From: Roseobacter sp.
GTDB taxonomy: Bacteria; Pseudomonadota; Alphaproteobacteria; Rhodobacterales; Rhodobacteraceae
Direction of reading: 5' to 3'
DNA: 64,000 nt
Assembly: GCA_015665415.1 (NCBI GenBank)
Contig: JADFAE010000010.1
Coordinates: 434,001 to 498,000 of the forward strand
Shown here: one piece after another, positions 5,290 to 64,000 of the stretch
How the letters are laid out: the number at the start of each line of letters is the position of its first letter
How positions within the stretch are numbered: the stretch's first letter is position 1
Made by a program: the position numbers and the translations under genes
Notes under the pieces: generated by a model
Database searches by the model: none
Told to the model about the DNA's origin: nothing
Seen by the model: the letters and a program-made list of their open reading frames with translations, nothing else

Positions 5290-5910
5290 TTAGTTCTTGG
5301 CGTAGAATTCCACAACCAGGTTTGGTTCCATGATGACGGGGTAAGGCACATCGGCCAGACCGGGGGCGCGCACAAAAGTGGCGGTCATCTTGTTGTGGTC
5401 GGCTTCGATGTAGTCAGGAACATCGCGCTCGGCCAGCTGGGTGGCTTCGATCAGAACGGCCAGTTGCTTGGACTTGTCACGCACTGCGATCACGTCGCCT
5501 TCCTTCACACGGTAGGAAGGAATGTTGACGCGCTTGCCGTTGACGGTGACGTGGCCGTGGTTGACGAACTGACGTGCAGCAAACACGGTTGCAACGAATT
5601 TGGCACGGTAGACAACGGCGTCCAGGCGGCGCTCGAGCAGGCCGATGAGGTTTTCACCGGTGTCGCCGTTCACACGGACAGCTTCGGCATAGATGCGACG
5701 GAATTGCTTCTCAGTCATGTCGCCGTAGTAGCCTTTCAGCTTCTGCTTGGCGCGCAGCTGAATGCCAAAGTCGGACAGTTTGCCCTTGCGGCGCTGACCG
5801 TGCTGGCCGGGGCCATATTCACGACGGTTCACTGGGGATTTAGGACGGCCCCAGATGTTTTCGCCCATGCGGCGGTCAATTTTGTATTTGGCAGCGGTAC
5901 GTTTAGTCAC
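5290..5910 (-). CDS. rpsD: 30S ribosomal protein S4
   Basis: 206 residues, the standard length for the family. The N-terminus [21 protein letters not shown] is typical of alphaproteobacterial S4 and lacks the zinc-binding cysteines. The S4 RNA-binding fold at about 96-160 contains [31 protein letters not shown] and KEGD. The start codon is GTG (5908-5910) with AAGGAGA correctly spaced upstream. S4 binds 16S rRNA early in assembly of the small subunit. It is transcribed as a single gene with its own terminator. The roughly 200 bases upstream carry its promoter, and I see no definite leader structure there. Confidence 0.98.
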
Positions 5911-6117
5911 AGCTGTTCTCCTTCGATATGGTCGAAGCCCTGATAGGCCACTATGAAGGGCGTTGTCCTCTTAAGTGCAGATCCGCAGACCCACTCCTAT
6001 GACAGGCATCCCCTTGCGGGGGCCACCAACACCAATGAGCGGCGCTTATATGCGCAAAGGAAGCAGAGTCAACACTGCGCCCCCTGATTTTTCCCAAGTC
6101 CTGAGATTTGTTTGCCC

Positions 6118-7191
6118 CTAGGCGGCCTCATGCATCAGAATGGCCGCCTCCGAGGCGCTGAGATTGCGCCGCGCATAGGCCCCATAGGACATAGGATCGC
6201 GCTCCAACCCCGGCAAAAGCCCGGTCAGGCGAATGCGGTCTGCAGTGTCCAGAGCCGACATCGAGGCACTGGCGGGATGAAAGCTCTCGCTTTCCACCCC
6301 ATTGGCCCAAAGCACCTGATGCGCACCTAACAGTACATGAATGTAGGTGACTTCCTTTACCGAGGAATCCGCCGTGATCGTGCCTCCATTGATCAGATCG
6401 CGAGCCGCAACCAGAACCTCTGGGGTATTGAACAGCGCCTGCACCTGACGCCCGCGCAACAGCATACGGTGTTCCGGCGAGACCAGCAGTTCCTTTTCCG
6501 GCCGGTCAATACCCAGCGCGCCCGCTCGAATGCGCACCGGCCGCAGCTTTGGCACCACAAACAGCCGCGCGCCACTAATGCGGCGCGCACCAATCCACTG
6601 GATCTCCTGGGCCCCATTGTCGCGGGTCTGCACCCAGTCACCTTCGCGCAGTTCTTCTACGCGGCGCGGCCCCTGCGGCGTGGCAATCTGGGTGCCGGGG
6701 GTGAAACAGATGACACCGCTGGCCGGCTGCCCTGGCATGCTATCCGCCGGGCAGCCGATACTGCCAAGCGAGTGATGCACCACCCAGAGATCGGTGCCCT
6801 TGGGCGGGATTTCATTTACAAACATCAAAAGAGGCCGCGCGCCATCGCCAACCTCAATCAGGGTGACGGTGTAGCTTTGCACCCCATTGGTCACCACAAA
6901 GCTCTTGTCCAGCAAAGGGTCTTCGACCGAGACCTCGCTCAGGTTGCTGCGGTTCTGCACCGCCGCCCCAACCAGTCTGCGCACCGAGCGTGCCGCCCGT
7001 CTGCGCAAATCGGATTCTCCGTTTGCCATATCCAAACGCAACAGTTCAGCCGGGCCATCGACCCGCACTGCTTCACCCTGCCAGGACCATGCAGCCCCGA
7101 CATCGATAGCCTCGACCGGTGCGGCCAAAAGACCGTCAATTTCTGTTTGCGTCCAGGAAATAACAAACGTGCCACGAAAGCCCGTTTTCAT
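6118..7191 (-). CDS. Hint-domain (Hedgehog/intein-type) protein
   Basis: 357 residues. A Hint_2-type domain begins at about residue 162 with CFTPGTQIATPQG (the nucleophile-position Cys162) and continues through VEELREGDWVQTRDNG and LLVSPEHRMLLRG. The N-terminal 150 residues have no recognised domain and no signal peptide. Proteins of this design are common in Rhodobacterales and are often linked to exported or self-processing proteins, but their function is mostly unknown. Whether it self-cleaves cannot be told from sequence. It stands alone between rpsD and the LpxR-like gene, on the same strand. Confidence 0.85.
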   Translation of the reverse strand: MKTGFRGTFVISWTQTEIDGLLAAPVEAIDVGAAWSWQGEAVRVDGPAELLRLDMANGESDLRRRAARSVRRLVGAAVQNRSNLSEVSVEDPLLDKSFVVTNGVQSYTVTLIEVGDGARPLLMFVNEIPPKGTDLWVVHHSLGSIGCPADSMPGQPASGVICFTPGTQIATPQGPRRVEELREGDWVQTRDNGAQEIQWIGARRISGARLFVVPKLRPVRIRAGALGIDRPEKELLVSPEHRMLLRGRQVQALFNTPEVLVAARDLINGGTITADSSVKEVTYIHVLLGAHQVLWANGVESESFHPASASMSALDTADRIRLTGLLPGLERDPMSYGAYARRNLSASEAAILMHEAA

Positions 7192-54062: not shown

Positions 54063-56044
54063 TGACCTCCGTCATCACAGAGGTCCCAAAGGCGCAGGGC
54101 TCTGCAGCCCCCCGGGCCACAATCCTGCGTCTGATGCTGGGGCTCGCCCTGGCGCTGACTATGGCCCAGCTGGCTGGCATTCTGCCTGCTTGGTTGCACC
54201 GTTTGCCGCAGGCAGTCATCCCGCCAACAGCCCTGTTTCTGGACCGGGTCTTTGACTTTGTGCAAAACGATTTGGGCCTGATCTATGTCACCCGTTTTAT
54301 TGCCGAAGGTCCGCTAGAGTTTTTGCTGGATACCTCGGCCAATCTGCTGGAGGGCAAGCGGCGTTGGCCAAATCTCGGGCCGATCCCATGGTCCGCAACG
54401 GCCGGGGTCGCGGCTGTTGTCGGCTATGCGCTGGGGGGCTGGAGGTTGGCAGCACTGGGGGCCGGAACCTGTGTCTGGACTGCCTTGATTGGCCAATGGA
54501 AAATGGCGATGCAGACGATGTCGGTGCTGGTCGTGGCCGCCCCCCTGGCCTTTGTGGTTGGTCTGTGTCTGGGCATCGCTGCATGGAAGTACCGCTGGTT
54601 TGAACGTGTGTTGAAGCCTTTCCTCAGCGTATTGCAGACCCTGCCGTTTTTCACTTACCTCTTGCCTGCGGTGATCTTTTTCAAAGTAGGTCCAACGGCC
54701 GGCGCGGTGGCTACGATCATCTTTGCCATCCCGCCAATGATCCTGATGACAACGCTGGGCCTCAAGAAGGTCAGCCACGAGGTGGTTGAGGCGGGCAAGA
54801 TGTCCGGCTGCACCCGGTGGCAGATGCTGCGCCATGTCTATATTCCCGCAGCGCGGACCGAGATCCTGGTTGGGGTCAATCAGGTGATCATGCTCTGTCT
54901 CGCCATGGTGGTTCTGACGGCCTTTATCGGCATGCCGGGGCTGGGCGCAAAATTGCTGGCGATGATGGGCAGCTTCAAACTGGGCCGCTCGTTTGAGATC
55001 GGCGTGACCATTGTGCTGCTGGCGGTGACGCTGGATCGGATGTCCAAGGCCTGGGTGGTGAAACAGCCCCAACATTTTGAAAAGGGCACGCCCTGGTGGG
55101 TCCGTCACCGGATCCCACTGCTGGGGTTGGCAGTCTTTGTCGGATTTGTCTTGTTGGCGCAGCTTTTTCCAATCCTTGGCAGTATCGGGCGCAAACAACA
55201 TTTCAGTCAGGGCAAAGAGATCGACGTGGTTATCAAATCTTTTCTGGCGCTGGATGGCATTCGCGGCGTGACCGAATGGCTGCGTTGGTTCCTGAATGTC
55301 AAAGTCCTGATCCCGTTCCGCAATGGCATGTTGGCGATCCCCACCCCGGCCTTCATCCTGATGGTGGTGGCATTCTGCTACTGGCTAGGGGGGCGCAGAC
55401 CTGCGATCTTTGGCGCGGTGTTCTTCTCCATTGTTGCCCTGTCGGGCTGGTGGGATCGCTCGATCATCACGCTTTATGCGGTGATCTCTGCGGTGGCACT
55501 GGCGACATTGATCGGCATTCCCTTGGGCATTCTCGCGGCCCGCTCCGAAATCTGGTCGCGCCGGGTGCTCTTGGCCTGCGATACGGCCCAGACCTTCCCA
55601 AGTTTCATCTATCTGATCCCGGCGATCATGCTGTTTGGGGTCAATGATGTGGCGGTGGTGTTCTCGGTGCTGATCTTCGCCACTGTTCCATTGACCCGCT
55701 ACACCGTTGAAGGCCTACGCACGGTCCCCCCTGAGATGACCGAAGCGGCTGAGATGTCCGGCTCAACCCGGCGTCAGAAACTGCTGTCGGTGCAACTGCC
55801 GCTGGCGCTGCCAACAATGGCAGTGGGGTTCAATCAGGCGATCATGTTTGCCTTCTTCATGGTCATCATCGCCGCCTTCATCGGCACACAGGACTTGGGG
55901 CAAGAGCTGCAGCGCACGCTGGCCGGGACGGAACTGGGCAAGAATTTTGTCCTGGGTCTGAATGTGTCGCTGATGGCTCTGACCTTTGACATGGCCATTA
56001 CCGCCTGGGCCGAGGGGCGAAAACGCGCCCTGGGGCTGGAGTGA
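54062..56044 (+). CDS. tmoW: TMAO-type ABC permease, tandem-duplicated ProW
   Basis: 660 residues, nearly twice a normal ProW (about 350). Two permease cores are present in one chain. The first has EAA loop EVVEAGKMSGCTRWQMLRHVYIPAA (about 235-260) and the second EMTEAAEMSGSTRRQKLLSVQLPLA (about 560-585). Each has its own set of helices. An N-terminal extension carries LLEGKRRWPNLGPIPWSATA. One chain may form both halves of the channel. It starts at the TGATG overlap with tmoV and is followed by tdm 16 bases later. Confidence 0.88.
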   Translation: MTSVITEVPKAQGSAAPRATILRLMLGLALALTMAQLAGILPAWLHRLPQAVIPPTALFLDRVFDFVQNDLGLIYVTRFIAEGPLEFLLDTSANLLEGKRRWPNLGPIPWSATAGVAAVVGYALGGWRLAALGAGTCVWTALIGQWKMAMQTMSVLVVAAPLAFVVGLCLGIAAWKYRWFERVLKPFLSVLQTLPFFTYLLPAVIFFKVGPTAGAVATIIFAIPPMILMTTLGLKKVSHEVVEAGKMSGCTRWQMLRHVYIPAARTEILVGVNQVIMLCLAMVVLTAFIGMPGLGAKLLAMMGSFKLGRSFEIGVTIVLLAVTLDRMSKAWVVKQPQHFEKGTPWWVRHRIPLLGLAVFVGFVLLAQLFPILGSIGRKQHFSQGKEIDVVIKSFLALDGIRGVTEWLRWFLNVKVLIPFRNGMLAIPTPAFILMVVAFCYWLGGRRPAIFGAVFFSIVALSGWWDRSIITLYAVISAVALATLIGIPLGILAARSEIWSRRVLLACDTAQTFPSFIYLIPAIMLFGVNDVAVVFSVLIFATVPLTRYTVEGLRTVPPEMTEAAEMSGSTRRQKLLSVQLPLALPTMAVGFNQAIMFAFFMVIIAAFIGTQDLGQELQRTLAGTELGKNFVLGLNVSLMALTFDMAITAWAEGRKRALGLE

Positions 56045-56060
56045 AGCAGGGAAGAATGCA

Positions 56061-58436
56061 ATGAATGTACAGCCGATTTTTGAGCTGCCCTTTGAGCGGC
56101 GTGGCGTCTTGGCGCCCGGGCTGCCGATCCTGCCGCAGGGGGTTGAGCGCCATCCGGTGCCGGGGGCTGGCTCGCGCGCGGTGCCGATCTCCAAAGGCGA
56201 TACCCTCACCCTATTGGATCGCGACGGGATGCAGAGGGCAGAGATGGTGTTTTTCGCACCGGACCGCCGCTCTGATGCCGCGATGCTGGGCGCAGAGGGA
56301 CGCGGTCGCCCAGAGGGTATCATCGCCACCCTCGCCAATGGATCTCGCTCTGGTGCCAAGGTGCTGCGCGCCCTGGAGACGGCCGGGTTCGATCTGGGGC
56401 AAGGCGATGCAATCCGCGCCTTTGAAGAGGGCTCGCAGGCGGGAGACATGGTCTCCTTCACAGCCGAGTGCGATGGCATGGTGATCGTTGCTGCCCCCGG
56501 TGGCCCGATGCGGCCCGAAGAGCAGAATCCGCCGACCGAAATCATTCTCTACATCCAGCGCTCTGCATCTGGCCTGCTAAAGCCGGAGATTGCGGCGCCA
56601 GAGCCGCTGGCCGATCCGCTTCAGGATCACAACATCCAACCGGGCAACGCGCAGACCTATGAGGTCAAGGCCGGGCAATACATTCAGGTGCTCGACGTGA
56701 AAGGGCGGGAATGTTCGGACTTTCAGGCCTTCAGCCTGCGTGCCTTGGACAAGGGGATCGAGCGGGAAATCGACCCGACAACCACCCGCAGTCTGATGGG
56801 AAGCCTCTATCCTGCGCCGGGGATTTTCTCAAAATACTGGTCAGTGGACCAAGAGCCGCTGGTTGAGATCGTGCAAGACACCTGCGGGCGTCACGATACC
56901 TTTGGCCTGGCCTGTACGGCCCGCTACTACGAGGATCTGGGCTATCCCGGCCATATCAATTGCTCTGACAACATGAACAAGGATCTGGCGCAGTTTGATA
57001 TCAAACCGCGCGGTGGTTGGCCTGCAATCAACTTCTTTTTCAATACCATGTTGGATGAGACAAATGCCATTGGCATGGATGACCCCTGGTCCCGTCCCGG
57101 CGACTATGTGCTGCTGCGCGCGCTCAGCGATCTGGTCTGCGTCAGTACCGCCTGTCCCTGTGACATTGATCCCGCCAATGGCTGGACCCCCACCGACATT
57201 CAGGTGCGTACCTATAAAGCGACCGAGGATTTCTCTCGGTCGGTTGGCTATAGAAAATCTGCGGAGGCGGATGTGGAAGAAACCAAGAAAACTGCGTTTC
57301 ACGACTGTTTTGCGCGTCATACCCGCGATTTTGTCGAATACAATGGCTACTGGCTGCCAAACACCATGACCAATCATGGTGCAATTGCCGAATATTGGGC
57401 CTGTCGAGACAGGGTGGCGGTGATGGATCTGAGCCCGCTGCGCAAATACGAGGTCACCGGTCCAGACGCCGAAGAGTTGATGCAGGCCTGCGTGACCAGA
57501 AACATGAAAAAGCTGAGTGTCGGGCAAGTGGTCTATACCGCCATGTGTTACGAGCACGGCGGGATGATCGATGACGGCACCGTCTATCGTCTGGGTGAGA
57601 CCAATTTCCGCTGGATTGGCGGCAATGATACCAGTGGGCTTTGGTTGCAGCAGCAGGCAAAGGCGCGCGGGTTGAATGCCTGGGTGCGAAACTCGACGGA
57701 TCAGTTGCACAATATCGCAGTCCAGGGTCGTCATAGCCGCGACATCCTGAGCCGGATTTTCTGGACGCCGCCGCAACAGCCCACAATCGAAGAGCTGCCC
57801 TGGTTCCGCCTGACCGTTGCCCGCGTCGGTGATGTTTCGGGCACTTCGGTGGTGATTTCACGGACCGGATACTCCGGAGAGCTGGGGTACGAGATTTTCT
57901 GTCATCCCAAAGATGCGGTTGAGATCTTTGACCGGGTCTGGGAAGTCGGGCAGGAGTTTGGCATTGCACCACTTGGTTTGGCGGCTCTTGATATGTTGCG
58001 GATCGAAGGCGGGTTGATCTTTGCAGGGTCCGAATTTGACGACCAGACCGACCCCTTTGAAGCGGGCATTGGCTTTACTGTACCGCTGAAATCAAAGGAG
58101 GATGATTTTGTCGGCCGTGCAGCAATCGAAGAGCGAAAGGCGCATCCCCACCGCAGGCTCGTGGGGTTTGAAGTCGAGGGAGGCACCATCCCGGTTCCAG
58201 GGGATTGCATCCGGGTCGGACGCGCGCAGGTCGGAGAAATCACCAGTGCCATGAAGTCGCCAATTCTGGGAAAAGTGATTGCTTTGGGACGGGTGGCCAC
58301 AACCCACGCCGAGATCGGAACCGAGATCGAAATTGGTCAGCTGGACGGGCTGCAAAAACGACTGCGGGCACGCATCGTCGCGTTTCCTCACTTTGATCCA
58401 ACCAAGGCGCGGGTGAAGGGGAGCTACGATGGATAG
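56061..58436 (+). CDS. tdm: Trimethylamine N-oxide demethylase (DUF1989-GcvT fusion)
   Basis: 791 residues, ATG with CAGGGA upstream. The N-terminal half is a DUF1989-type domain. The C-terminal half from about 430 is a folate-binding GcvT domain with GcvT_C at the end. In the Tdm enzyme I recall, zinc is held by three Cys with spacing 64 and 2. Here C301, C365 and C367 reproduce that spacing (GHINCSDN, STACPCD). Tdm splits TMAO into dimethylamine and formaldehyde, the latter trapped by tetrahydrofolate. Position after tmoXVW fits. Glycine-betaine-type demethylation is a weaker alternative. Confidence 0.86.
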   Translation: MNVQPIFELPFERRGVLAPGLPILPQGVERHPVPGAGSRAVPISKGDTLTLLDRDGMQRAEMVFFAPDRRSDAAMLGAEGRGRPEGIIATLANGSRSGAKVLRALETAGFDLGQGDAIRAFEEGSQAGDMVSFTAECDGMVIVAAPGGPMRPEEQNPPTEIILYIQRSASGLLKPEIAAPEPLADPLQDHNIQPGNAQTYEVKAGQYIQVLDVKGRECSDFQAFSLRALDKGIEREIDPTTTRSLMGSLYPAPGIFSKYWSVDQEPLVEIVQDTCGRHDTFGLACTARYYEDLGYPGHINCSDNMNKDLAQFDIKPRGGWPAINFFFNTMLDETNAIGMDDPWSRPGDYVLLRALSDLVCVSTACPCDIDPANGWTPTDIQVRTYKATEDFSRSVGYRKSAEADVEETKKTAFHDCFARHTRDFVEYNGYWLPNTMTNHGAIAEYWACRDRVAVMDLSPLRKYEVTGPDAEELMQACVTRNMKKLSVGQVVYTAMCYEHGGMIDDGTVYRLGETNFRWIGGNDTSGLWLQQQAKARGLNAWVRNSTDQLHNIAVQGRHSRDILSRIFWTPPQQPTIEELPWFRLTVARVGDVSGTSVVISRTGYSGELGYEIFCHPKDAVEIFDRVWEVGQEFGIAPLGLAALDMLRIEGGLIFAGSEFDDQTDPFEAGIGFTVPLKSKEDDFVGRAAIEERKAHPHRRLVGFEVEGGTIPVPGDCIRVGRAQVGEITSAMKSPILGKVIALGRVATTHAEIGTEIEIGQLDGLQKRLRARIVAFPHFDPTKARVKGSYDG

Positions 58437-59647: not shown

Positions 59648-59712
59648 AGGGTGAAGTAAATTTTCAGAATAATAAATCATTTTTACCCCCTATTCGAACC
59701 AGGAGATTGCCA

Positions 59713-62034
59713 ATGCTAATCAATTCAGTTTCCGAAATATTGCACCGACTTGCATCACATGGCTGGGCAGATTTAATGGCCGCGCATGGTCTTGATTTAA
59801 ATGCGCAAAACTTGGCAGACGAGCTCACCCGGCCGTTACAAAACATAGATCGGTCCATACCTGGATTCAAAGACTTGTCGCCTGCGTGTTCACGAGCTGT
59901 CGAGCCGGGATCCCCGGCCCGAAGTCTACTCTTTCATGCCCTTGCAAGTCCCGAGGTTCACAGTAGCCCAGTTGGAGCCCTGTCTGCCTATCCATCCCTT
60001 GCTGACCTAGACGCTATTGAAAACTATATATATGCAGCAGCGGCCCTGAGTTTCGAAGACGTTGAGGATCTTGCCCGCCAAACACAGAGTCATTTCAGTG
60101 GCCCTGTGGATGGGGAAATAGCTATCGTCGTTCTGTCTACAGAATACCGTTCTGCATCGGACAGCGTGCATGGCGGACAGGCAGATCAGGTTTTTTCGCG
60201 CACGGGCATCGCAAGGGCGGGCACGCTGCCCCCCAACTACAACGCAAAGGCACGGGGCCACTGGCCTGCATCCGATCAAATCGGCATTCACTCAGTGCCT
60301 TCAACATGGAACGCTTACCTTTGTACAAAGGTGCGTCCGGACCGGACACAAGTGCTGAGTGCGGCCGGCATCGGCCCGGCAACCCCAGTTGCAGAAGATA
60401 TCAATCAGCTCTTCTGGACACCGATACACAAACTCTTTGACGGTCAGGAATGTTTGGTTGGTGAAACCGTTTCCTTGCAGTGGCTGGCTCATCACGAAAA
60501 CACAAAGATCGCGCGGATCCATAAGTTCCTGCATTCGATTGGCGAAGTTTCGCGCGTCGGGACAGACGATCTAAGCGCCAGCCCGTTTAGGTTCACCGAG
60601 GGTCTGGCCAATCTGTCGAACGATGCCAGCTTGCCACCTGCAGTGATCGTGCCGGTTTCACATCCGCGCCTTATCGACATTGCAAGAAACGCAGCCGGAG
60701 TACCGGTAACTTTCAAGGTTCCAAAGTCAAAATCAACGCCTTCAGGTGCTGTCAAATTGTTCTGGAGCAGCCTGGAAATGCGTAATTTCGGGACCGGTGG
60801 AAACAGACCTGCCCCAGAGTACGTGCATATCCGGCATGTTCTTGACGAAAACGGAGGCGTCGTCTCCCTGAATGACGAAGCGGGCCTAATAGATAAGATT
60901 GAAACGGCTGGCTACGACGCCGTTCACTACGTGGACTTCACCGGTGCGGGTTATATCACCCTGACTGGTACCGGGCTTTCGCGCGCCTTCGATATTAAGG
61001 CAGGACACAGCGTCATCGCTGCTCCTGACTTCTATCCAAAGGTCGATCAGCGGCAAGTCCAGATATGGCAGCGCAATTTGCGGGAAAGTGACCCTGACCT
61101 GGCAGATTTCATAAGATGGGAAAGCCAACTTGCGCCGCTTTCGGCAATCCGATTGCCCGCAAACCCGGCGATTGACACTGCAGGACGCCACCCGTTTGCA
61201 CGTTCTGAAGATGATGGTACGGAGGAAACAATAAGCGCGCTCATTGCGGTGCCGGATTCAACACGCTCTGCCGCCACCGAATTTAAGCTGTCGGATGTCG
61301 AACGTTGCTCGACGATGCCGGATGCAGCTGCAGGCATCTTTGCGCCAGGCTGGGCTATCTCTTCTGATGCCACAGAAGGCCGCAGACACCTCGCAGCCTA
61401 TGGCTTGGGGAGTCCTTTTCCAGAAGACTCTAAGCTTTGTGCCGCTTTAAGTGCCTTTTGGCCTGCCGCCGCACCAGATACCACACGGACCTATGAGCCA
61501 ACCCGCGACTCGGTTGTCCCGATGGTTGATGAGGAGATGACACACGGCGCTGCCTGGGACGGTATTGATGGGATAACCCTGTCCAACGATGGCCGCACCG
61601 TGGAATTTCCCGACAAAGACTATGCCGATTACACCGAAAGTTCTTTGAACAACGCCTTTGATATCCGCAAAATTGCTGCAGTGACATTTGATGACTATGT
61701 AACCCGGGCCCTGAGAACGGCTCAGGTACGGCGCTATTTGGCGCAAAATCCAAGCTTGGGTGCCACCAACTTCCTTCTAGCGTCTTTCACGCAGGTGCCT
61801 GACGGGCACACAGATTTGGCACAAATCCAAACCGATACGTCCAGGGAGCTTTCAGGTCCGGCGTACCGGTTCAAGATTATCACGCGAGACGCCTCTTCTG
61901 CCAAACCCGGTGACCATCGCCGCAGGGTCGCGAATGTTAGCAGCCTGCTCGAAATTATTGCCGCCGGAAATGGTATCGCCCATCGCAACGCTGGATCATG
62001 GATCTCCTTAGATCCGATCTTGTTTATATCATGA
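59713..62034 (+). CDS. LodA-like quinoprotein (CTQ) oxidase
   Basis: 773 residues from the ATG at 59713, 7 bases after AGGAG. The C-terminal third has the LodA-family signature: EDSKLCAALSAFWPAAAPDT at about 571-590, with Asp572 and Cys576 in the D-x3-C spacing known for cysteine tryptophylquinone, then PMVDEEMT and AAWDGIDG with Trp615 as a candidate partner. LodA enzymes oxidise an amino acid with O2, giving H2O2. The first 500 residues differ from LodA as I know it, so the substrate is unknown. There is no signal peptide, as in LodA. It precedes a LodB-like flavoprotein. Confidence 0.75.
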   Translation: MLINSVSEILHRLASHGWADLMAAHGLDLNAQNLADELTRPLQNIDRSIPGFKDLSPACSRAVEPGSPARSLLFHALASPEVHSSPVGALSAYPSLADLDAIENYIYAAAALSFEDVEDLARQTQSHFSGPVDGEIAIVVLSTEYRSASDSVHGGQADQVFSRTGIARAGTLPPNYNAKARGHWPASDQIGIHSVPSTWNAYLCTKVRPDRTQVLSAAGIGPATPVAEDINQLFWTPIHKLFDGQECLVGETVSLQWLAHHENTKIARIHKFLHSIGEVSRVGTDDLSASPFRFTEGLANLSNDASLPPAVIVPVSHPRLIDIARNAAGVPVTFKVPKSKSTPSGAVKLFWSSLEMRNFGTGGNRPAPEYVHIRHVLDENGGVVSLNDEAGLIDKIETAGYDAVHYVDFTGAGYITLTGTGLSRAFDIKAGHSVIAAPDFYPKVDQRQVQIWQRNLRESDPDLADFIRWESQLAPLSAIRLPANPAIDTAGRHPFARSEDDGTEETISALIAVPDSTRSAATEFKLSDVERCSTMPDAAAGIFAPGWAISSDATEGRRHLAAYGLGSPFPEDSKLCAALSAFWPAAAPDTTRTYEPTRDSVVPMVDEEMTHGAAWDGIDGITLSNDGRTVEFPDKDYADYTESSLNNAFDIRKIAAVTFDDYVTRALRTAQVRRYLAQNPSLGATNFLLASFTQVPDGHTDLAQIQTDTSRELSGPAYRFKIITRDASSAKPGDHRRRVANVSSLLEIIAAGNGIAHRNAGSWISLDPILFIS

Positions 62035-63017
62035 AAAGTGATGTCCTCATTGTCGGAGACGGTATTGCAGGCCTATCGAGCGCGATCATCGCCAAACTAA
62101 AGGGGCTGGAGACGGTCGTTCTCCAACCCAGCACCAAACCGAGAGACGCGTTTCATGTCGTGCTGCACCCTGGTATAGAAGCTCTGCTCAAGACGCTCGG
62201 AGTGGCTCAGGAGGCGGCTTGTTTAGCGTCCTCCAGACCAGACGGATATTGGCGATACAGTGCAGAAGGCCGCGATTTCGTGCTCTATGGCCAGGACGCC
62301 GAGGGCCCTTGGCTTGGCTACCTCGTGAGCCTGAGGGAGCTGGAGAACTTGCTCAGAGCTCGGGCTCAATTTCTTGGGACTATTTTCCTTCGTCCGGCCG
62401 ACGCGGTGCATGCCCTTTCGGAACATGGGGCTGTCAAAGGTCTGGAAAGCGCAAGGAAGCGTTGGTTCGCAGGCCTGACCATTGACGCAAGCGGCGCAAG
62501 GGGGATCCTTGCCCGCGACTTGTGTTTGAAATACCTGTACGGATCTCCACCACTTGTCGCAACCTATGCTTCACAAGCGTCAAGCAACCCCGCCTCTCAC
62601 CCCATATTCCGAATGGACCCAGATGGGTGGCGCTTTGATATGAGCACCAGCCCAGGCCATAGATGCACCATCGGAATGGCCATCACTTCGCAAAAGATCT
62701 GCGAAAAGGGCAAATCTGGCCGGGATGTCTCCTGGCGATATTTGCCCGAATGTGCGGGCCCTGGATATGCACTTGTCGGCGATGCAGCCTTCCGACTCGA
62801 CCCGGGTTCAGGGGCGGGTGTACTGCGGGCAATTATGATGGGGATCAAGGCTGTCGAATTGGCGGCGCAGCCCGACGAATGGCATCTGTACCGCCAATGG
62901 GTCAGTGACTGGGCCCGCACTGACGGCGCTGCGCTCGCGGAAATCTATTCTGAAAAACCATTCAACGCCGCCTGGCCCAAATCGCATCGCTGGAGTGATG
63001 CGAGACTTTCCTTTTAA
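62031..63017 (+). CDS. LodB-like FAD protein, predicted quinone-cofactor maturase
   Basis: 328 residues from the ATG at 62031, which overlaps the LodA stop (ATGA). FAD motif IVGDGIAGLSSAII at residues 5-18, and GYALVGDAAFRLDPGSGAGV near 245-264 (the GD motif of flavin hydroxylases). LodB is needed to form the CTQ cofactor in LodA. The strict coupling here supports the same role. A little shorter than typical LodB. Confidence 0.75.
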   Translation: MKSDVLIVGDGIAGLSSAIIAKLKGLETVVLQPSTKPRDAFHVVLHPGIEALLKTLGVAQEAACLASSRPDGYWRYSAEGRDFVLYGQDAEGPWLGYLVSLRELENLLRARAQFLGTIFLRPADAVHALSEHGAVKGLESARKRWFAGLTIDASGARGILARDLCLKYLYGSPPLVATYASQASSNPASHPIFRMDPDGWRFDMSTSPGHRCTIGMAITSQKICEKGKSGRDVSWRYLPECAGPGYALVGDAAFRLDPGSGAGVLRAIMMGIKAVELAAQPDEWHLYRQWVSDWARTDGAALAEIYSEKPFNAAWPKSHRWSDARLSF

Positions 63018-63127
63018 CCGGGGCATTCAAAGACCAGAGACAACACATACCGGGGGGAACGATCCGATGACCTAAGTCAGCCAGTCATATTTTTCGCTAG
63101 CAGAATTTATTAAATGAAAGTCATCCC

Positions 63128-64000
63128 ATGTCACATCAAACACATTTCGGCAAATCAGTGCTTGCCCCACGTTCAAAATTCTATCAGGGCCCGTTCGGCA
63201 GAATTTGCCCCAACCTGGATCCCTGGGTGCCTCCAGGCACTACAGAAGAACAGGATGCTGGGTTTTTGGAGTTTGCGACCAAAAACATGGTTGAACTGCC
63301 AGGGTCAACACCGACTGAAATCGCTCAGGACCAATCCACGATTGACGAACTTGAAAGCAAATTCGGATCACAGATCCCTGCCGGGTACACGTATTTCGGA
63401 CAGTTTGTTGATCACGACATAACGCTTGATACCACGTCTTTGACAGCGCGGGAGATCGACCCTGATCAAATAAAAAACTTTCGCACCCCAAGACTTGATC
63501 TGGACTGCGTTTACGGCAGAGGCCCCGGTGACCAGCCCTACCTTTATGAATTCGATAGCAAAGGAAAATTCACGGGAGAGCTTCTGGTTGGGACAGTGGC
63601 AGGAACAAACCTGAAAGATTTGCCTCGAAATCAGCAGGGGCGCGCATTGATCGGCGACATGCGCAATGATGAGAATTCGATGGTCAGCCAACTGCAACTC
63701 GCCTTCATCCTGGCGCATAACGAACTTGTCGAAAGAGCGGATGCGCAGGGCGCAAGCGATGCGTTTTCTGCAGCCCGAAAATCTCTAACCCGTCTTTACC
63801 AATGGGTCGTCTGGAATGACTTAATAAAACGCATTGCGATTGATGAGGTCTATAACTGTGCGCTGCAGCTAGAAGAGCTTTGCGGCGGGCGCAAAGTTTG
63901 GACGATGGGACTGAAAGATGTGTATGAATGGAAAGATCAACCGTTCATGCCAGTCGAGTTTTCTGGTGCTGCTTATAGATTTGGCCACTCCATGGTCCGC
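63128..64000 (+). CDS. Animal-type heme peroxidase, partial (runs off right edge)
   Basis: 291 residues from the ATG at 63128 to the window edge, in frame to the last base. It has the family hallmark YFGQFVDHD with distal His96 and the Ca-binding Asp97, then RTPRLDLDCVYG, GDMRNDENSMVSQLQLAFILAHNEL, and EFSGAAYRFGHSMVR with proximal His287. Peroxidases of this superfamily (including bacterial ones) use H2O2 to oxidise halides or organic substrates. The ribosome site is weak. The gene is in the same direction as LodA/LodB after a 110-base gap. The upstream oxidase could supply its H2O2. Confidence 0.88.
   Translation, partial: MSHQTHFGKSVLAPRSKFYQGPFGRICPNLDPWVPPGTTEEQDAGFLEFATKNMVELPGSTPTEIAQDQSTIDELESKFGSQIPAGYTYFGQFVDHDITLDTTSLTAREIDPDQIKNFRTPRLDLDCVYGRGPGDQPYLYEFDSKGKFTGELLVGTVAGTNLKDLPRNQQGRALIGDMRNDENSMVSQLQLAFILAHNELVERADAQGASDAFSAARKSLTRLYQWVVWNDLIKRIAIDEVYNCALQLEELCGGRKVWTMGLKDVYEWKDQPFMPVEFSGAAYRFGHSMVR

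Follow-up and report, generated by a model that had tools for sequence, protein, structure and literature searches.

Can a bacterium carry, in one small cluster of genes, both an enzyme that makes hydrogen peroxide (H2O2) and an enzyme that spends it? This question is raised by three genes on the forward (plus) strand at the right end of a 64,000-nucleotide stretch of Roseobacter sp. DNA (assembly GCA_015665415.1, contig JADFAE010000010.1, positions 434,001 to 498,000), which is referred to here as the window. An initial annotation of the letters had read them as a LodA-like oxidase, its LodB-type maturase and an animal-type heme peroxidase, and they are called A, B and C below. The best overall explanation, to which we would assign a probability of about 0.5, is that A is an oxidase dependent on cysteine tryptophylquinone (CTQ), that B is its maturase and that C uses the H2O2 released by A.

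Gene A (59713..62034) begins at an ATG preceded by AGGAGA, ends with a stop codon at 62032-62034 and encodes 773 amino acids that are remotely related to LodA and proposed to form a CTQ protein. The proposed CTQ core covers residues 542-589 (FAPGW ... EDSKLC ... FWPAAAPD; 61336..61479, plus strand), with C576 and W583 as the candidate CTQ residues and D572 as a conserved acid. The CTQ-type Cys/Asp signature noted earlier stands, as D572-x3-C576 is invariant in all seven aligned members of the A family, and W583 likewise. The Asp-to-Cys distance is 4 in these seven rows and in 11 of 11 LodA rows, and the motif W-x-A-x2-P is kept in A as in LodA. From Cys to Trp, however, the distance is 7 in 7/7 A rows, compared to 15-37 in the 11 aligned LodA rows and 6 in QhpC. 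The CTQ pair is C516 and W581 in the LodA of M. mediterranea (PMC4417212) and Cys37 and Trp43 in QhpC (PMC7876137), and the Asp four residues before the CTQ Cys is described as dispensable for CTQ formation in GoxA (PMC7876137). Comparison of the A core with one QhpC-type sequence gave E 0.00042 at a probability of 34%. The LodA profile reached the gamma subunit 1jmx_G in the PDB at E 0.41, a link that is no evidence by itself given this weak value and the higher rank of an unrelated demethylase (0.28).

Family models place A poorly. No Pfam or NCBIfam model reached its cut-off for any of the seven members, and a profile search of the PDB with A returned nothing up to E 10. The single NCBIfam response up to E 1, given by two of the seven members over the core, was the quinohemoprotein amine dehydrogenase gamma subunit, which is the CTQ subunit; it missed its cut-off (QH_gamma, E 0.038, 13.9 of the 50 bits needed) and falls on residues 523-596 of the window protein. 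For comparison, the genome also holds two canonical LodA genes besides the A-B pair, L001 (G000:C3 near 252940) and L002 (G000:C14 near 88895), each adjoining its own LodB. The Pfam model LodA_C (PF18417) matched at C3 and C14 and not at the A locus, and the two canonical proteins scored E 3.7e-47 to 1e-107 with the better of the NCBIfam LodA and GoxA models, still under the equivalog cut-offs.

The remote relationship emerges when whole profiles are compared. A profile of the seven A proteins (A3) was aligned by hhalign with profiles of 5 or 11 LodA proteins. With five, the score was 38.1, compared to 18.0 for the reversed profile and maxima of 28.3 in 100 column shuffles and 32.2 in 100 block shuffles. 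With 11 it was 43.5 over the full length and 45.4 without gap-rich columns (reversed, 14.0), and the trimmed profile beat 60 of 60 block shuffles (maximum 35.0). Similarly, six motifs occur in the same order in A and LodA, namely G-x2-R-x-G, D-x4-G, [DN]-[FY]-x-P, F-x-P-G-x3-[ST], D-x3-C and W-x-A-x2-P; a single pattern with all six, composed after the alignments had been viewed, matched seven of seven A rows, eight of 11 LodA rows and none of 3600 residue shuffles. A core pattern, likewise composed with the families in view, was run over 449 frames and gave 29 matches, all of them LodA or A-family proteins, with the L009 row matching elsewhere than at its aligned core; these matches show specificity and are no independent discovery. 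A is probably a very remote and so far unnamed branch of the CTQ oxidases rather than a LodA. Of the original LodA-like label, the remote relationship and the retained CTQ residues hold; the plain name LodA is not supported, as A falls outside the LodA and GoxA models.

Gene B (62031..63017) encodes a 328-residue flavoprotein, proposed to be a CTQ maturase of the LodB/GoxB/QhpG kind. Its longest open frame begins at 61998 and stops at 63017; the start was placed at the second Met, at 62031, as this agrees with the start in relatives and yields the reported ATGA overlap with A at 62031-62034. The best NCBIfam models were GoxB (5.4e-13, 48.7 of 400 bits) and QhpG (1.5e-12, 47.2 of 240), both far under the equivalog cut-off. 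A profile of four B proteins searched against the genome found B itself at 570 bits, then the two LodBs at 97.3 and 90.8, with the next match at 43.5. In a tree of 19 rows, one branch (93/98, drawn open) splits six B rows from 11 LodB/GoxB rows, and another (100/99) separates both groups from the other flavoproteins, of which there were only two; the L011 row forms a long branch. By its sequence B resembles, and groups with, the CTQ maturases LodB, GoxB and QhpG, in agreement with the coupled LodB-type maturase first suggested.

Gene C (63128..64000 in the window) starts 110 bases after B and runs 657 bases past the window edge. Extending the contig rightward, as had been recommended, gave a complete and intact peroxidase of 509 amino acids (L003:4128-5657). 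The protein scores 58.1 bits with Pfam An_peroxidase (cut-off 25) and carries GQFVDHD, R-N-D-E and FGHS motifs, both His motifs among them, which bears out the earlier call of an animal-type heme peroxidase in the same direction. Q92, D95, H96, R179, E182 and H287 are invariant across the five aligned peroxidases, and we take their catalytic roles to be those of the mammalian peroxidases. Many plasmid relatives of C exist; three of them are 34-44% identical to it, and no LodA-type gene is annotated within 6 kb in the three plasmid neighbourhoods examined. C is an ordinary, sequence-intact member of An_peroxidase, like other bacterial animal-type haem peroxidases in its catalytic residues and different from them in sitting behind an A-B pair.

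All three genes are found together a second time. Blastn of the 19-kb region around them (L003) against the contig L007 gave one match (L003:702-5662, L007:5675-10626) at 82.8% DNA identity, whose limits lie 11 bases before A and 5 bases after C. In window coordinates this shared block spans 59702..64000 and extends 662 bases past the edge. The left flank (L004) gave no further blastn match to L007, and in L007 an IS200-type transposase gene (Y1_Tnp) lies directly at the block end. The true host of L007 is uncertain, as it is a 13.7-kb contig from an uncultured Roseibium assembly. The block argues that A, B and C have moved or been kept together, but a single case of this kind cannot show that the three need each other.

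Beyond these two copies, A is rare. Eight loci with A were counted (the window, L007, L008, L009, L010, L011, L017 and L018), leaving aside a remnant in G025. In the genome sets searched, which overlap, A was found in 2 of 146 relatives (its own genome and the G025 remnant), 3 of 385 genomes of the class, 1 of 398 of the phylum (its own genome), 3 of 379 around Nitrosomonas (of which two were discarded), 1 in a set of 17 and 1 of 87 around L007; LodA_C, for comparison, was present in 4 of 60 relatives. The two discarded ones are weak whole-genome matches in G995 and G1202, in frames read by eye as the exonuclease VII large subunit. Three of 72,556 plasmid records carry A, and these three came up whether the query was the window protein or either of two further members of the family. 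No relatives were found in 50,697 phages, in a scan of viral contigs or in PHROGs. B adjoins A in six of the eight loci, in one of which, L010, both frames are broken. In G273 B is unlinked, on another contig (306.9 bits). For Acaryochloris the search covered the plasmid alone, and the highest score of the B profile there was only 16.9 bits. An_peroxidase matches occurred in five of 12 genomes or records searched (the own genome, G007, G827, Nitrosomonas G828, on contigs other than that of A, and the Acaryochloris plasmid) and were absent from G273, G426 and two Burkholderiaceae records, among others. A-B is the conserved system, to which C was added in a lineage-specific way.

The sequence itself shows the genes, the conserved residues, the remote homology and the shared block; CTQ formation, oxidase activity and the transfer of peroxide are inferred, and the mechanism would run as follows. 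B, as a flavoprotein monooxygenase, would oxygenate W583 of A; this residue would then be linked to C576, so forming CTQ, while D572 would be the conserved acid close by. Once mature, A, a single chain, would use O2 to oxidise an amino acid or a primary amine, releasing NH3 and H2O2, and the haem peroxidase C would consume this H2O2, whether in forming some reactive compound or in protecting the cell. CTQ, or a close variant of it, is probably present in A; that A is a peroxide-releasing oxidase is slightly favoured; and that C uses peroxide from A is a tentative proposal, with odds a little below even. The coupling of A and C is plausible and so far confined to one lineage.

Several results weigh against this explanation. 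The LodA_C model and the NCBIfam LodA and GoxA models gave no response to any of the seven A members up to E 1, and the only Pfam response in that range was DUF5754, below its cut-off and in one of the seven (E 0.16). The hhalign probabilities for A with LodA are low (15.7, 36.9 and 48%), and the confidently aligned region is the middle stretch from D-x4-G to F-x-P, not the CTQ core, which in isolation was not significant against LodA (E 0.035, probability 1.5%). The residue after the PGW motif is Ala548 in the proteins of the window and L007, compared to Asp in the other five A rows and Asp or Glu in 11 of 11 LodA rows. AlphaFold, given three A sequences, returned a predicted local distance difference test (pLDDT) score of 28.2 and no usable fold. 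Finally, an animal-type peroxidase adjoins A in only two of the eight loci, the window and L007, and these two closely resemble one another. The initial annotation had named a lack of joint conservation in relatives as refuting, and this applies by half: A and B are kept together in six of eight loci, and the full A-B-C set, though present on a second contig, in one lineage only.

The last point invites the view that A-B is an oxidase-maturase pair of the CTQ kind, with C a passenger or detoxifying enzyme caught in the same moving block. Six of eight A loci without an adjacent peroxidase, the many plasmid relatives of C with no LodA-type gene annotated beside the three examined, and the 110 bases between B and C would all fit this. 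However, the block edges enclose the three genes tightly, and peroxidases also lie near A on the Acaryochloris plasmid (animal-type at 8.3 kb, DyP at less than 3 kb). We consider a passenger role for C less likely than not. It would be more doubtful still that A carries CTQ and passes electrons to another acceptor, in the manner of quinohemoprotein amine dehydrogenase, with no H2O2 formed and C serving otherwise. The Cys-to-Trp distance near that of QhpC and far from that of LodA, the amine dehydrogenase gamma subunit as the sole model responding to A, and a 490-residue Nitrosomonas protein with a CxxCH-like motif (by eye) just upstream of A are consistent with electron transfer of this kind. 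Nevertheless, the full-length similarity of A goes to LodA oxidases, its two invariant Cys would not allow a QhpC-like set of Cys-Asp/Glu crosslinks, and an amine dehydrogenase gamma gene was not found in the own genome.

The least probable account holds that A is no CTQ enzyme at all, that B halogenates or hydroxylates either A or some small molecule, and that the likeness of A to LodA is a decayed or structural relic. Among solved structures the B profile ranks flavin halogenases highest (8zop 1.7e-28, CmlS 7.9e-24), above QhpG (7ctq, 3.6e-12), and A has Ala548 and no model above cut-off. QhpG and GoxB are, however, themselves reported to be most similar to the halogenase CmlS (PMC7876137); moreover, the LodBs are the nearest proteins to B within the genome, and C576, W583 and D572 are invariant in all seven members.

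Several known systems resemble parts of the locus. In LodA/LodB and GoxA/GoxB, the CTQ-dependent lysine and glycine oxidases treated in PMC4417212, an oxidase gene is followed by a flavoprotein maturase gene as in A-B, and A shares their motif order, D-x3-C and W-x-A-x2-P; it differs in being missed by their models, in its short Cys-to-Trp distance and in the peroxidase gene that follows. QhpC/QhpG (PMC7876137) shares with A-B the short Cys-to-Trp distance, the Asp four residues before Cys and the QhpG-like flavoprotein, but A is a single chain of 773 residues with two invariant Cys whose QH_gamma match lies below cut-off. There are precedents for linking enzymes of the LodA type with further oxidative enzymes: PMC4417212 describes fusions of LodA with a catalase-fold domain, as well as operons in which LodA is accompanied by tyrosinase and multicopper oxidase. 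Unlike A-B-C, these are canonical LodAs whose partners are not animal-type peroxidases. A literature search that covered few subscription papers found no paper joining tryptophylquinone with animal heme peroxidase, or CTQ-dependent with peroxidase family protein, and no description of the A family among the titles and abstract openings listed. Among eight plasmid neighbourhoods of canonical LodA (7-kb flanks, truncated in H15 where the record begins), none has an annotated animal-type peroxidase, and in one a DyP peroxidase lies at a distance of about 5.5 kb.

A bolder and still tentative reading would be that A founds a third lineage of CTQ enzymes, combining a LodA-like full-length chain with a QhpC-like tight Cys-Trp loop. 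In one lineage A, its maturase and an enzyme of the myeloperoxidase type would then form a self-contained module, spread horizontally, in which peroxide is spent where it is made. If true, protein-derived quinone enzymes would reach beyond what current family models detect, the LodA and amine dehydrogenase ways of holding CTQ could be compared in nature, with a bearing on quinone making, and the block of three genes would offer a compact oxidase-peroxidase pair of natural origin, testable as it stands.

Other A loci have neighbours of their own. On the Acaryochloris marina plasmid pREC1 (L092, 300000-330000), the peroxidases near A are a 939-residue animal-type enzyme at 8.3 kb and a DyP peroxidase within 3 kb; the same 30 kb also hold a lipase, a formylglycine-generating enzyme and a tyrosinase, forming an island of enzymes for oxidation and protein modification. 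The Nitrosomonas protein directly upstream of A (L008, 749-2221) is lipoprotein-like, with its CxxCH-like motif near the end and no Pfam match. Beside A-B in G426 (L018) lie a His-rich protein of 417 amino acids (989-2242) and, on the opposite strand, one of 395 (5816-7003), both without a Pfam match. The G025 remnant (L019, near 1831-2583) is an A gene cut to about 210 N-terminal residues and followed by unrelated sequence.

Within the window, GC content is 0.542 in A, 0.572 in B and 0.515 in C, compared to 0.58 overall. One promoter-like site (shuffles, 4.1) and eight terminator-like sites (shuffles, 7.1) were counted, neither exceeding chance, and no clear signal peptide was seen by eye in A or C. 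The flanking genes look unrelated to A-B-C. To the right of C lies an AMP-binding enzyme on the opposite strand, and to the left of A a glycine-betaine type transporter is followed by an 816-residue fusion of DUF1989 with a GcvT-type aminomethyltransferase (55986-58436).

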